Of a stretch of 64,000 nt of DNA, positions 11,024 through 63,457 are shown one piece after another; position 1 is the stretch's first letter, and every line of letters begins with the position of its first letter. This DNA is from an uncultured Roseobacter sp. GTDB taxonomy: Bacteria; Pseudomonadota; Alphaproteobacteria; Rhodobacterales; Rhodobacteraceae. A program made the position numbers and the translations under genes. The notes under the pieces were generated by a model. It worked only from the letters and a program-made list of their open reading frames with translations. It had not been told where the DNA came from and made no database searches. The stretch spans positions 1-64,000 of the forward strand of contig NZ_CANMDB010000001.1 of assembly GCF_947496515.1 (NCBI RefSeq), read 5' to 3'.

Positions 11024-11622
11024 GCGTCGCGGTCACGTCCTTCGCCATTTTCGCCGCCAGTCAGGTCGGTACACCGGGCCCCGCCAACATGGCGCTGATG
11101 GCCACCGGTGCGCGCTACGGCTTTCGCGCGGCGCTGCCTTTCGTGGCGGGCGTGGCGCTTGGCAAGCAGCTGGTGATCTGGCCAGTGGGCTTTGGTCTGA
11201 TGGAGCTTGCCGAGGCCGCGCCCTGGGCTTTTGAGGCGCTCAAATACGCCTCCGCCGCCTATATCATCTGGCTGGCGTGGCGGGTGGCGCATATGCGTCT
11301 GGGCACCGGCGCGGATGTGGCCGACGCGCCTGGTGTACTGGCCGGGCTCATCGTGCATCCGCTCAACCCAAAGGCTTGGGCGATGATCGTGGGCGGCTTT
11401 ACCGCCTTTGTGGCGCCCGGCACACCCACCATTGAGGCAACGGCAACCATTGCCGCCGTATTGCTCGCCTGCCAGATTCTGCTGCACCCGTTGTGGACAC
11501 TTGCCGGTGAGGCCACCGCGCGCACGGTCGCAGGAACGGCGGTGGAACCTTATCTTATGGGTACGCTCGCGGCCCTCACGGTCGCGTCAGTGATGTTTGT
11601 TTTGTTCGGAGGAGGGACATGA
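11020..11622 (+). CDS. LysE family amino-acid exporter
   Basis: A 200-residue inner-membrane protein with about five or six hydrophobic segments. The N-terminal QVGTPGPANMALMATGARYG is the family signature (PGP motif), and NPKAWAMIVG lies in the middle. LysE/RhtB proteins export amino acids or their derivatives; the substrate is not predictable. GGGAGG seven bases before the ATG supports the start. It overlaps the flanking acetyltransferase genes at both ends, so all three are translated together. Confidence 0.88.
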   Translation: MSVAVTSFAIFAASQVGTPGPANMALMATGARYGFRAALPFVAGVALGKQLVIWPVGFGLMELAEAAPWAFEALKYASAAYIIWLAWRVAHMRLGTGADVADAPGVLAGLIVHPLNPKAWAMIVGGFTAFVAPGTPTIEATATIAAVLLACQILLHPLWTLAGEATARTVAGTAVEPYLMGTLAALTVASVMFVLFGGGT

Positions 11623-36061: not shown

Positions 36062-37102
36062 TCAGGCAACGCGGATGCGCGGGTTGAGATAGACATAACC
36101 GATATCGGAGATGAGCTGCGTCAGCAGCACCACGATCACCGACACCACCGACACCGCCAGCAGCAACTCGATGTCATTGTTGCCTGCTGCCTGCACCAGC
36201 ACCCAGCCGAAACCCTTGTAGTTGAAGAGTGTCTCGACGATCACCACCCCGTTCAGCAACCAGGGAAACTGCAGCATGATCACCGTGAAGGGCGCGATCA
36301 GCGCGTTGCGCAGCGCGTGTTTCAACACGATGTTGCCAAAGCTTACGCCCTTCAGCCGCGCCGTCCGAATGTACTGCGCCGTCATCACTTCGCTCATGCT
36401 CGCCCGGGTCATCCGTGCGATATAGCCCATGCCAAAGAGCGCAATGGTGACCACCGGCAGGGTGAAATTCTCGAAGGTCGCGTCGTCCATGGCCGATGTG
36501 GCCGACCCGTTGAAGATCTTGAACCCGGCGGAGGACGCAAAGACCGCAATGAAGATCACCCCGGATACATACTCGGGCGTGGCGGTCGACAGGATCGACA
36601 CCGTCGACAGCGACCGGTCGAGCTTGGAGCCTTCGCGCATGCCCGCAAGCACACCGATGAGCAGGGCCATGGGCACCATCAGCAGCATCACAAAGAACAT
36701 CAGCTTGCCCGTAAGCCCCAGCCGCTCGGCCACGATCCCGCCTACATCCGCCTTGAACACGGTCGACCGGCCCCAGTCGCCTTGCAACACGCCACAGTAG
36801 CTGCGCCGCGCCTCCTCGGGCGTGCCTGCGTCAAAGCATTTGCCTGCAACGGTGCCGTCCGTCTCGATCACCCAACCCGGCACGACGCCCAACCATTGAC
36901 CGAACTTGATCGGCAGCGGCTGAAGATAGCCGTTCCTGCCCAGATAGCTCTCCACCGCCTCGTCGGACATCCGGAAGTTTCCTTGAGTCTTGGCCAGTTT
37001 CTCAAGGTTCGGATAGAGGTTTGTCAGCCAGAAAACGACGAACGTCAGGCAGAGCGCGGTCAGTACCATGACACCAAGGCGTTTGAGTATGAAAAGTCCC
37101 AT
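36062..37102 (-). CDS. oligopeptide-type ABC transporter permease (DppB-like)
   Basis: A 346-residue permease opening with LFILKRLGVMVLTALCLTFVVF, a membrane helix typical of DppB/OppB. A long periplasmic segment follows (about 32-135), then about five helices. The EAA-like loop is TARLKGVSFGNIVLKHALRNALI. First gene of the ABC operon. A gap of 189 bases with no clear gene separates it from the AraC-type gene upstream. Confidence 0.9.
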   Translation of the reverse strand: MGLFILKRLGVMVLTALCLTFVVFWLTNLYPNLEKLAKTQGNFRMSDEAVESYLGRNGYLQPLPIKFGQWLGVVPGWVIETDGTVAGKCFDAGTPEEARRSYCGVLQGDWGRSTVFKADVGGIVAERLGLTGKLMFFVMLLMVPMALLIGVLAGMREGSKLDRSLSTVSILSTATPEYVSGVIFIAVFASSAGFKIFNGSATSAMDDATFENFTLPVVTIALFGMGYIARMTRASMSEVMTAQYIRTARLKGVSFGNIVLKHALRNALIAPFTVIMLQFPWLLNGVVIVETLFNYKGFGWVLVQAAGNNDIELLLAVSVVSVIVVLLTQLISDIGYVYLNPRIRVA

Positions 37103-54222: not shown

Positions 54223-58451
<4,229 letters not shown>

Positions 58452-58481: not shown

Positions 58482-58496
58482 GTTCTTAATAAGTTC
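58482..58496 (+). promoter_or_regulatory. LexA (SOS) box of the alphaproteobacterial type
   Basis: A perfect GTTC-TTAATAA-GTTC, matching the direct-repeat GTTC-N7-GTTC bound by LexA in Rhodobacter and relatives. It lies 54 bases before the ATG of the small membrane ORF, a position that would overlap the -35 region of its promoter. A further GAAC occurs at 58520. About two such matches are expected by chance in 64 kb, so position in the short intergenic gap is the main support. Confidence 0.6.
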
Positions 58497-58550
58497 TTTA
58501 CGAATCGCTTTCGATATGAGAACAAAGTAGCAACATACAGGAGGGTGATC

Positions 58551-58679
58551 ATGGATGTTCTTGCACAGATCAAATCAGCGGCCACACGGGCCCAGCCGAC
58601 CTTGCTCCAGGACATCGCCGGTGCTGCCGCGCTCGTCCTGATGTTGCTGATCGCCCTGAACGTCAGCGCCATCGTCTGA
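58551..58679 (+). CDS. 42-residue membrane peptide, probably SOS-controlled
   Basis: A small ORF with an excellent ribosome binding site, CAGGAGGG, seven bases before the ATG. Residues 1-19 are polar and helical (MDVLAQIKSAATRAQPTLL); residues about 21-42 form one membrane span (IAGAAALVLMLLIALNVSAI). It follows an SOS box and is separated from recG by 99 bases. Small LexA-controlled membrane peptides such as SidA of Caulobacter stop cell division; by analogy this could be a division inhibitor or a toxin, but no sequence match to SidA is claimed. Confidence 0.65.
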   Translation: MDVLAQIKSAATRAQPTLLQDIAGAAALVLMLLIALNVSAIV

Positions 58680-58710
58680 TTTCTGCCTGCGCCGTCGCGG
58701 CCCGTAACCT

Positions 58711-58861
58711 TGCCGGGATCTTCCACCCGGCATCGGAGACGCACACTGCCTGTGCCCGGTCTCCTCAGGGGTTTCCCCTGCGGTTGCTCACAAACGGGAT
58801 CCCCACGCGACAGACGCATACCTCACGCCGCCGTCTCTCATGGGACGTGCGGCGTTTTTTT
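58711..58861 (+). ncRNA. candidate structured RNA or 3' UTR with three hairpins
   Basis: Three consecutive stems follow the small ORF. TGCCGGG/CCCGGCA is at 58711-58732. GGAGAC-GCACA pairs with TGTGC...GTCTCC at 58735-58764. CAGGGG/CCCCTG is at 58766-58780. A canonical terminator closes the stretch. So much local pairing in a gap with no ORF suggests a small RNA or a structured 3' UTR of the peptide mRNA. No known RNA family was recognised. Confidence 0.4.
58825..58861 (+). terminator. Rho-independent terminator
   Basis: ACGCCGC and GTC pair with GAC and GCGGCGT around a TCTCATGG loop, followed by seven T residues. It ends transcription from the small-peptide promoter, 24 bases before the convergent scaffold gene ends. 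Confidence 0.88.
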
Positions 58862-63223: not shown

Positions 63224-63457
63224 TTACACGCGCCAGAACACCTTGGACGCCTCGGTCCGAGCCACCCGCGGTGTCAGCCCCACATCATCCAGCTGCCAAT
63301 TTTCCAGCTGGCTCAGCGCACGTCTGGTACGGCGCCGCGTGGCCCATTTCGACACAATGACCGCAAACTCCAGCGCCAGCAGCGCAACCGTCGGAATGTC
63401 CTTTGCCGTGTTCAGATAGGCGATGGTCCGGTGGGAGGGGGTCATAAGATGTGTCAT
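63224..63457 (-). CDS. DUF1127 family protein
   Basis: A 77-residue protein with a C-terminal DUF1127 motif, LSQLENWQLDDVGLTPRVAR (about 48-67). A hydrophobic stretch lies at about 22-36 and a basic patch RRRTRRAL precedes the motif. DUF1127 proteins of alphaproteobacteria include small stress or RNA-linked Arg-rich proteins, so that kind of role is possible. AGGAGA seven bases before the ATG decides the start. It diverges from the MocR gene across 93 bases rich in dyads. Confidence 0.88.
   Translation of the reverse strand: MTHLMTPSHRTIAYLNTAKDIPTVALLALEFAVIVSKWATRRRTRRALSQLENWQLDDVGLTPRVARTEASKVFWRV

Follow-up and report, generated by a model that had tools for sequence, protein, structure and literature searches.

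In a 64,000-nucleotide stretch of contig NZ_CANMDB010000001.1 from an uncultured Roseobacter sp. (hereafter the window, meaning the whole stretch), an open reading frame (ORF) of 42 codons located behind recG is followed by a conserved structured RNA. The structure of this RNA is supported by covariation among relatives, and short words, CUGCC and GCCUG, are displayed in its single-stranded start and in its loops. The ORF is preceded by an exact SOS (LexA) box. We tentatively propose that the locus is bifunctional, and that one transcript would both encode a SidA-like peptide and act as an RNA that blocks ftsZ translation.

Layout of the locus and its predicted SOS promoter

Behind recG, the order is SOS box, conserved promoter stretch, short leader, 42-codon ORF and 182 nucleotides (nt) up to a run of seven T. 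The features are as follows.

58482..58496, + strand: SOS (LexA) box GTTCTTAATAAGTTC, exact GTTCN7GTTC
58497..58527, + strand: putative promoter with TTTACG (-35-like), conserved TATGAGAACAAAG and an extra GAAC half-site, kept in the upstream regions of relatives
58540..58545, + strand: Shine-Dalgarno sequence GGAGGG of the 42-residue peptide, from the sequence
58551..58679, + strand: ORF of the 42-residue peptide, ATG to TGA, predicted single-pass membrane protein (homologues, dN/dS, hydropathy)
58682..58689, + strand: UCUGCCUG, the 5' copy of the motif, adjoining the peptide stop codon (alignment, word enrichment)
58688..58818, + strand: closing stem P1 of 11 bp (58688-58699/58806-58818) and inner stem of 6 bp (58704-58709/58782-58787), from fold and covariation
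58711..58732, + strand: hairpin H1, 7 bp (58711-58717/58726-58732), from fold and covariation
58735..58764, + strand: hairpin H2, 11 bp with a 3-nt bulge (58735-58745/58751-58764), loop CUGCC (58746-58750) inside CUGCCUGU (58746-58753); CTGCCTG invariant
58766..58780, + strand: hairpin H3, 6 bp (58766-58771/58775-58780), from fold and covariation; missing from some relatives
58825..58861, + strand: intrinsic terminator, 13-bp stem with one bulged base (58825-58837/58842-58855) and seven T (58855-58861), from the fold; conserved CGCCGCC stem (helix 11)
56361..58451, + strand: recG, the constant upstream neighbour by synteny, outside the predicted SOS transcript

The ORF product had been called an SOS peptide in an earlier note made from the window's letters, and the exact box in front of it bears this name out. 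In the first 50 loci collected, a GTTCN7GTTC box is found 68-107 nt 5' of the chosen ATG in 49 (two places are present twice, and the lone box-less locus, L002, is a chance match). Transcription probably starts in the 58497..58527 region. A GAGAAC half-site 3' of the SOS box (58515-58527 in the window) occurs in nearly all of the relatives' upstream regions inspected, and might be contacted by LexA as well or belong to the -10 element. The other GTTCN7GTTC sequence of the window, at 11534-11548 on the minus strand, was set aside; it lies inside an ORF that we take to encode a LysE-type transporter, and by chance alone the window should contain 1.3 exact sites. GTTCN7GTTC is described as the LexA motif of alphaproteobacteria (PMC12700426). 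A simple promoter and terminator scan reported neither the 58825..58861 terminator nor the SOS promoter, and is uninformative here because it overlooked both.

The 3' region folds as one multi-branched RNA

In the predicted fold, the 3' region of the window is one multi-branched RNA, in which the closing stem and the inner stem enclose three hairpins and the terminator comes after. The minimum free energy (MFE) of positions 58680-58861 is -86.4 kcal/mol, versus -64.5 +/- 4.7 kcal/mol in 200 dinucleotide shuffles, none of which is as low (z -4.7). For the whole predicted transcript z is -3.0, with 1 of 100 shuffles equally low. The earlier note had described three separate stems of 6 to 11 bp followed by a strong terminator. 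All of these are found where it had placed them and fold beyond chance. Their separateness does not hold, because the closing and inner stems, which had been overlooked, join the hairpins.

A covariance model built from 11 sequences was used to align 74 relatives. Standard pairs occupy 90.9% of 3596 cells, versus 71.3% in shuffles, and slid control versions of the alignment pair in 35-49%; the alignment is fitted to the model and hence biased towards it. The compensatory changes that the earlier note had proposed to look for are present, with changes on both sides at 48 of the 53 pairs. Helices 1-3 are 94.7-98.6% paired and show a double change at all 13 of their pairs. On any of five covariation measures, none of 500 shuffles reaches the real values. 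In model-free MFE folds of 45 sequences, the closing stem encloses three hairpins in 34 cases and two in 10, the window being counted among these ten owing to the script's reading of its inner stem; only L006 gave neither.

At paired columns, G-U exceeds A-C both in the core (196 vs 96) and in the terminator (79 vs 6), which indicates that the sense strand is the folding strand. A function of the antisense strand is disfavoured by this wobble bias towards the plus strand. It is hardly conceivable that we are dealing with a mere strong terminator in GC-rich sequence that folds by chance. The region is indeed GC-rich, and terminator-like partial matches to the RNA model occur elsewhere, but the junction stems covary and strong full-length matches are found, among the genomes searched, solely in Rhodobacteraceae. 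Chance folding was rejected on the z of -4.7 together with the covariation.

Conserved words are displayed in the loops

CTGCCTG is invariant in an alignment of 18 sequences, in the 5' copy UCUGCCUG as well as in the H2 copy CUGCCUGU. A word count over 134 sequences of more than 140 nt, in which some species appear twice, places CUGCC, GCCUG, CUGUC and GUCCC near the top of the enriched five-letter words. Each core contains on average 3.55 copies of CUGYC, versus 0.88 in shuffles, and the bases of CUGYC are unpaired in 1744 of 2380 cases (73%), versus 8086 of 18972 (43%) overall. We also counted words in 103 3' regions from named genomes, for which an end in a T run was required (hereafter the named RNAs). 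CUGCC is found in 101 of them, GCCUG in 96, CUGUC in 89 and GCCUGU in 60. A structured 3' end, an own terminator and conserved unpaired words, by which small RNAs (sRNAs) derived from 3' untranslated regions are recognised, are all found here. That the 3' region may yield its own sRNA would fit the conservation of the loops.

Predicted transcripts were folded to examine pairing of the 3' part with the peptide's own ribosome-binding site. Over 103 predicted transcripts, the site is paired with the 3' part at a mean of 0.11, versus 0.41 with shuffled tails (one mononucleotide-shuffled tail per transcript). Fold-back onto the own site is thus disfavoured as a family-wide mechanism. Because the own site pairs less than with shuffled tails, a cis fold-back is unlikely in the family and a role in trans is favoured. 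The window's own transcript is an exception, with 0.57 of the site paired with the 3' part.

These values bear on a type I toxin-antitoxin system, in which the 3' region would be bound by an antisense RNA or would fold onto the ribosome-binding site. A small membrane peptide behind an SOS box does recall TisB and DinQ, and the 57% pairing in the window's transcript points the same way. The wobble bias lies on the sense strand, however, and the family-wide pairing is low, although a self-contained fold would give a similar value. The simple promoter scan found no promoter on either strand, but it overlooked the sense SOS promoter too, and no further search for antisense promoters was made. Overall, a type I system seems very unlikely, and the RNA-controlled toxin suggested in the earlier note finds no support in the sense-strand wobble bias or in the pairing of the own site.

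Distribution of the RNA and its coupling to the peptide

A first RNA model (R1) matched in 188 of 295 genomes of the family at E<=0.01. A second model (R2) matched at E<=0.001 in 175 of 196 genomes sampled from the order, a sample of which 195 genomes are listed, all from the window's family, Rhodobacteraceae. In a sample of the class, 11 of 190 genomes match, three from the family and eight from outside it at 23-30 bits. None of these eight has an SOS box or a peptide match below E 7, and spread beyond the family was therefore rejected. The window's genome contains one match at E 2.6e-31, the next being at E 0.02 and weaker. Since the next two have neither peptide nor SOS box, a multi-copy RNA was also rejected.

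A single-sequence search at E<=0.01 detected the peptide in 133 of 295 genomes of the family, and a DNA search found the locus in 18 of the 19 genomes of the genus, including the window's. Five positions are invariant among twenty aligned peptides. The median ratio of non-synonymous to synonymous substitution (dN/dS) is 0.16 for 14 sequences of the genus (defined for 69 of the 91 pairs) and, by this measure, the gene evolves as coding sequence. The one hydrophobic stretch of the window peptide lies in the C-terminal half, and hydropathy predicts a membrane protein. The peptide has no Pfam or NCBIfam match above the cut-offs; one sub-threshold match to ComX (E 0.14) came from a relative's peptide.

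RNA and peptide are coupled. We examined 90 loci chosen by their RNA (L051-L140), namely the best 30 of the R1 matches and 60 others down to E 4e-10; genomes already sampled were mostly omitted, as were about ten more in range. At all 90, the peptide (E<=2e-7) is present together with an upstream GTTCN7GTTC box, sought within 330 nt 5' of the stop codon. A box in the promoter, which marks members of the LexA regulon, is thus found at 58482-58496 in the window and at each of these loci. Conversely, a scan of named genomes starting from the promoter gave at least 117 stretches. The peptide is present in 110 of the 117 matches listed (76/80 and 34/37); among the seven without it, two are cut by the end of the stretch, four belong to other phyla and one to an alphaproteobacterial metagenome-assembled genome. 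The model search covered the first 80 of these stretches and found the RNA in 70 at E<=0.001. Among those listed, recG is directly 5' in 98 of 100 eligible stretches, and the hosts of the peptide include Roseobacter, Ruegeria, Sulfitobacter, Roseovarius, Rhodobacter, Gemmobacter and Paracoccus.

Greatly shortened RNAs were observed in Falsirhodobacter, Paracoccus and genus g24 (L272, L209, L255, L385-L393). In nine genomes of g24, the 3' region of 99-142 nt consists of the closing stem, often one hairpin, and the terminator; in Falsirhodobacter (L272) it measures 66 nt. Three loci (L015, L228 and L229) have an SOS peptide with no RNA match beside it. At L015, peptide and box are present and the adjoining RNA match is absent; its genome (G174) has one weak R2 match (E 3e-4), the position of which is not listed. 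Of 25 family genomes with a weak model match or none, 16 have exactly one SOS promoter with a small ORF and a folding 3' region of 99-192 nt. Since these genomes were not RNA-free, they could not serve as an RNA-less contrast group.

The coupling also suits a purely cis function, in which the 3' structure would stabilise, localise or serve to process the peptide mRNA. The RNA accompanies the peptide at 90/90 loci, and the window's genome has a single strong match. A stabiliser, however, needs no loop words, and yet most RNAs retain them, even at lengths near 100 nt; L015 also carries peptide and box with no RNA match next to them. We consider a function limited to cis to be improbable.

The ftsZ leader as a candidate target

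The target test covered one gene, ftsZ, which was chosen because the LexA-controlled DinR of Klebsiella blocks ftsZ (PMC10907235). In the first 20 family genomes, the sequence 5' of the ftsZ start codon is ACAGGCGG (19) or ACAGGTGG (1). Over 47 family genomes, the leader has ACAGGCGG in 38, ACAGGTGG in 3, CAGGCGG in 3 and another sequence in 3. CAGGCGG was found in none of 28 alphaproteobacterial outgroup ftsZ leaders, the best 28 of 54 outgroup genomes with a match. As background we used 662 other family leaders (241 with an ATG and a ribosome-binding site), which were taken from mechanical ORF calls on 110 named stretches, with some false starts among them, and which come from genomes other than the window's. 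Among these, ACAGGCGG occurs in 2, CAGGYRG in 15 and ACAGGYGG in 2. The ribosome-binding site ACAGGCGG of ftsZ is an unusual, family-specific sequence in its own right, whatever its cause (L276-L295, L302, L325-L350). The bare pattern CAGGCGG-N3-9-ATG occurs 150-272 times per genome, versus 16-41 for the reversed pattern (six genomes). Most of these sites probably lie inside coding sequence, and the pattern alone is therefore not specific.

5'-CUGCCUGU-3' and 5'-ACAGGCGG-3' can form an 8-bp duplex that includes one U-G. Pairing of H2 with the ftsZ leader reaches -20.1 kcal/mol in the window's genome, a value equalled by 4 of the 662 leaders of named relatives. Leaders that pair as well as ftsZ number 8 of 662 for CUGCCUGU alone, 1 for UCUGCCUG and 12 for GCCUGU. 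GCCUG is kept in all 14 short RNAs of g24 and its kin (two of which are alike), versus 35% of shuffles.

Several results weigh against ftsZ as the target. Three family genomes (G319, G366, G380) have other ftsZ sites. GCCUG is missing from seven of the 103 named RNAs, including three of the 16 short ones (13/16 have it), and GCCUGU, which the full 8-bp match requires, is present in just 60. For the longer 5' segment UUUCUGCCUGCG, 26 of 662 leaders pair as well as ftsZ. If pairing may use any C-rich segment, 12% of the 241 leaders reach the ftsZ median. The ftsZ leaders hardly outdo their shuffled versions in pairing (mean z -0.8, with some ftsZ start codons misplaced). Exchange of RNAs and leaders among genomes caused no significant loss of pairing, with p 0.20 for 20 genomes (two ftsZ sites, G204 and G297, being taken inside the ORF), and p 0.45 for 36 genomes (site set by the start codon), 0.19 for the 14 short and 0.62 for the 22 long RNAs. 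RNA and leader are both nearly constant, which leaves co-variation between them hardly visible. In the family, a single origin is possible for ACAGGCGG and likewise for the RNA, and the match would then amount to about one independent event. Finally, the upper stem of H2 contains the motif's UGU, so that pairing would require this stem to open.

Because the swap, shuffled-leader and C-rich-segment results failed to support it, we regard ftsZ as an inferred target, that is, a lead. Because 7/103 RNAs are without GCCUG and 43/103 without GCCUGU, we rated this target lower and moved the mechanism as a whole from a little short of an even chance to somewhat further below it. The family-wide checkpoint considered below was likewise rated slightly lower.

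Alternatively, the loops CUGCC/CUGUCC may act in trans on other or many mRNAs, or may titrate a protein that binds the motif, as CsrB titrates CsrA. The short motifs are present in several unpaired copies, and C-rich loops suit G-rich ribosome-binding sites in general, as the 12% of 241 leaders equal to ftsZ illustrate. The core ftsZ site also leaves the second conserved word, CUGUC (89/103 named RNAs), unexplained. On the other side, GCCUGU fits few leaders as well as it fits ftsZ (12/662). As to titration, we know of no protein that binds the CUGCC/CUGUCC motif, and none was searched for. Action on other targets or by titration appears rather unlikely on balance.

A proposed two-level control of division

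Our preferred, still tentative reading remains the bifunctional locus acting on ftsZ. DNA damage would remove LexA from the promoter 3' of recG, as the box suggests, and a single transcript with a predicted length of about 330 nt would be made. The ORF would yield the 42-residue peptide; its translation is suggested by codon evolution and its membrane location by hydropathy. The peptide most likely slows division as SidA does in Caulobacter. The 3' part would form the multi-branched RNA exposing CUGCC/GCCUG, which, within the whole mRNA or as an sRNA processed from its 3' end, would most likely pair with ACAGGCGG of ftsZ and block FtsZ synthesis. Division would thereby be hit at two levels, by the peptide and by the RNA. 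Such a locus would combine the actions of DinR and SidA in a single transcript and, like Pos19, would be a coding RNA. It is more doubtful that this constitutes a family-wide, two-armed SOS checkpoint, in which the ftsZ site would be held at ACAGGCGG to stay addressable by the RNA. Across Rhodobacteraceae, a conserved RNA behind an SOS promoter would amount to a new RNA family, and damage-induced division arrest in these bacteria would become directly testable through it.

Other features of the window

Elsewhere in the window, positions 36307-36485 (+ strand) match the Rfam family Cis52_sRNA (Ruegeria) with 96 bits, against a threshold of 56. A small ORF at 63224-63457 (- strand) presumably encodes a DUF1127 protein. 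In Rhodobacter, a DUF1127-type gene precedes the C-rich CcsR sRNAs.

Comparison with known systems

The window RNA and 20 related loci match no Rfam family at curated thresholds. The best sub-threshold scores are 15.4 of 40 bits for BcKCsr2 (RF02883) and 13.3 of 50 for sX13 (RF02232). The literature searched, in the text available, makes no mention of the peptide or the RNA, and a motif given only in a supplement is possible, for instance in PMC8632094. A word search in the available text of two surveys of candidate RNAs (PMC2864571, PMC8632094) found no such motif. The word recG is missing from a paper on D. shibae LexA (PMC6473078), and both recG and SOS are missing from one on R. pomeroyi sRNAs (PMC4809877).

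TisB and DinQ are SOS-controlled small membrane peptides, as predicted for the peptide here, but they are under antisense RNA control, of which the wobble bias and the simple promoter scan gave no sign at this locus. In Escherichia coli, DicF is a processed sRNA that blocks ftsZ translation, as predicted here; it derives from a prophage operon and is not family-wide (PMC9438474). EcpR1 of Sinorhizobium meliloti is a stress-induced RNA that uses a conserved loop to repress the cell-cycle mRNAs dnaA and gcrA. Unlike the present RNA, it is non-coding, has two stem-loops and is under stringent-response control (PMC4414408). Pos19, from Rhodobacter sphaeroides of the same bacterial family, is a stress-induced transcript that is both translated and regulatory; it differs in being controlled by RpoE, in its 219 nt and in its targets in sulfur metabolism (PMC5036791).

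The peptide may resemble SidA of Caulobacter crescentus, a LexA-controlled tiny inner-membrane protein of an alphaproteobacterium (PMC4211646). An inhibitor of the SidA kind would bind FtsW/FtsN and block division. The proposed likeness rests on the SOS box and the one hydrophobic segment, the location being a prediction here. SidA has 29 residues versus 42, and a structured 3' RNA is not mentioned for it in the available text of that paper.

The closest parallel to the predicted mechanism is DinR of Klebsiella, a LexA-controlled sRNA from the 3' end of a small-protein mRNA (348 nt) that acts on the ftsZ ribosome-binding site (PMC10907235). The proteins differ, and the ftsZ-pairing stretch of DinR is said to be specific to Klebsiella, whereas the RNA described here is family-wide and has a covarying multi-branched fold. 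If our reading is true, control of ftsZ under SOS by an mRNA that is also an sRNA, as in Klebsiella DinR, is family-wide in another bacterial class.
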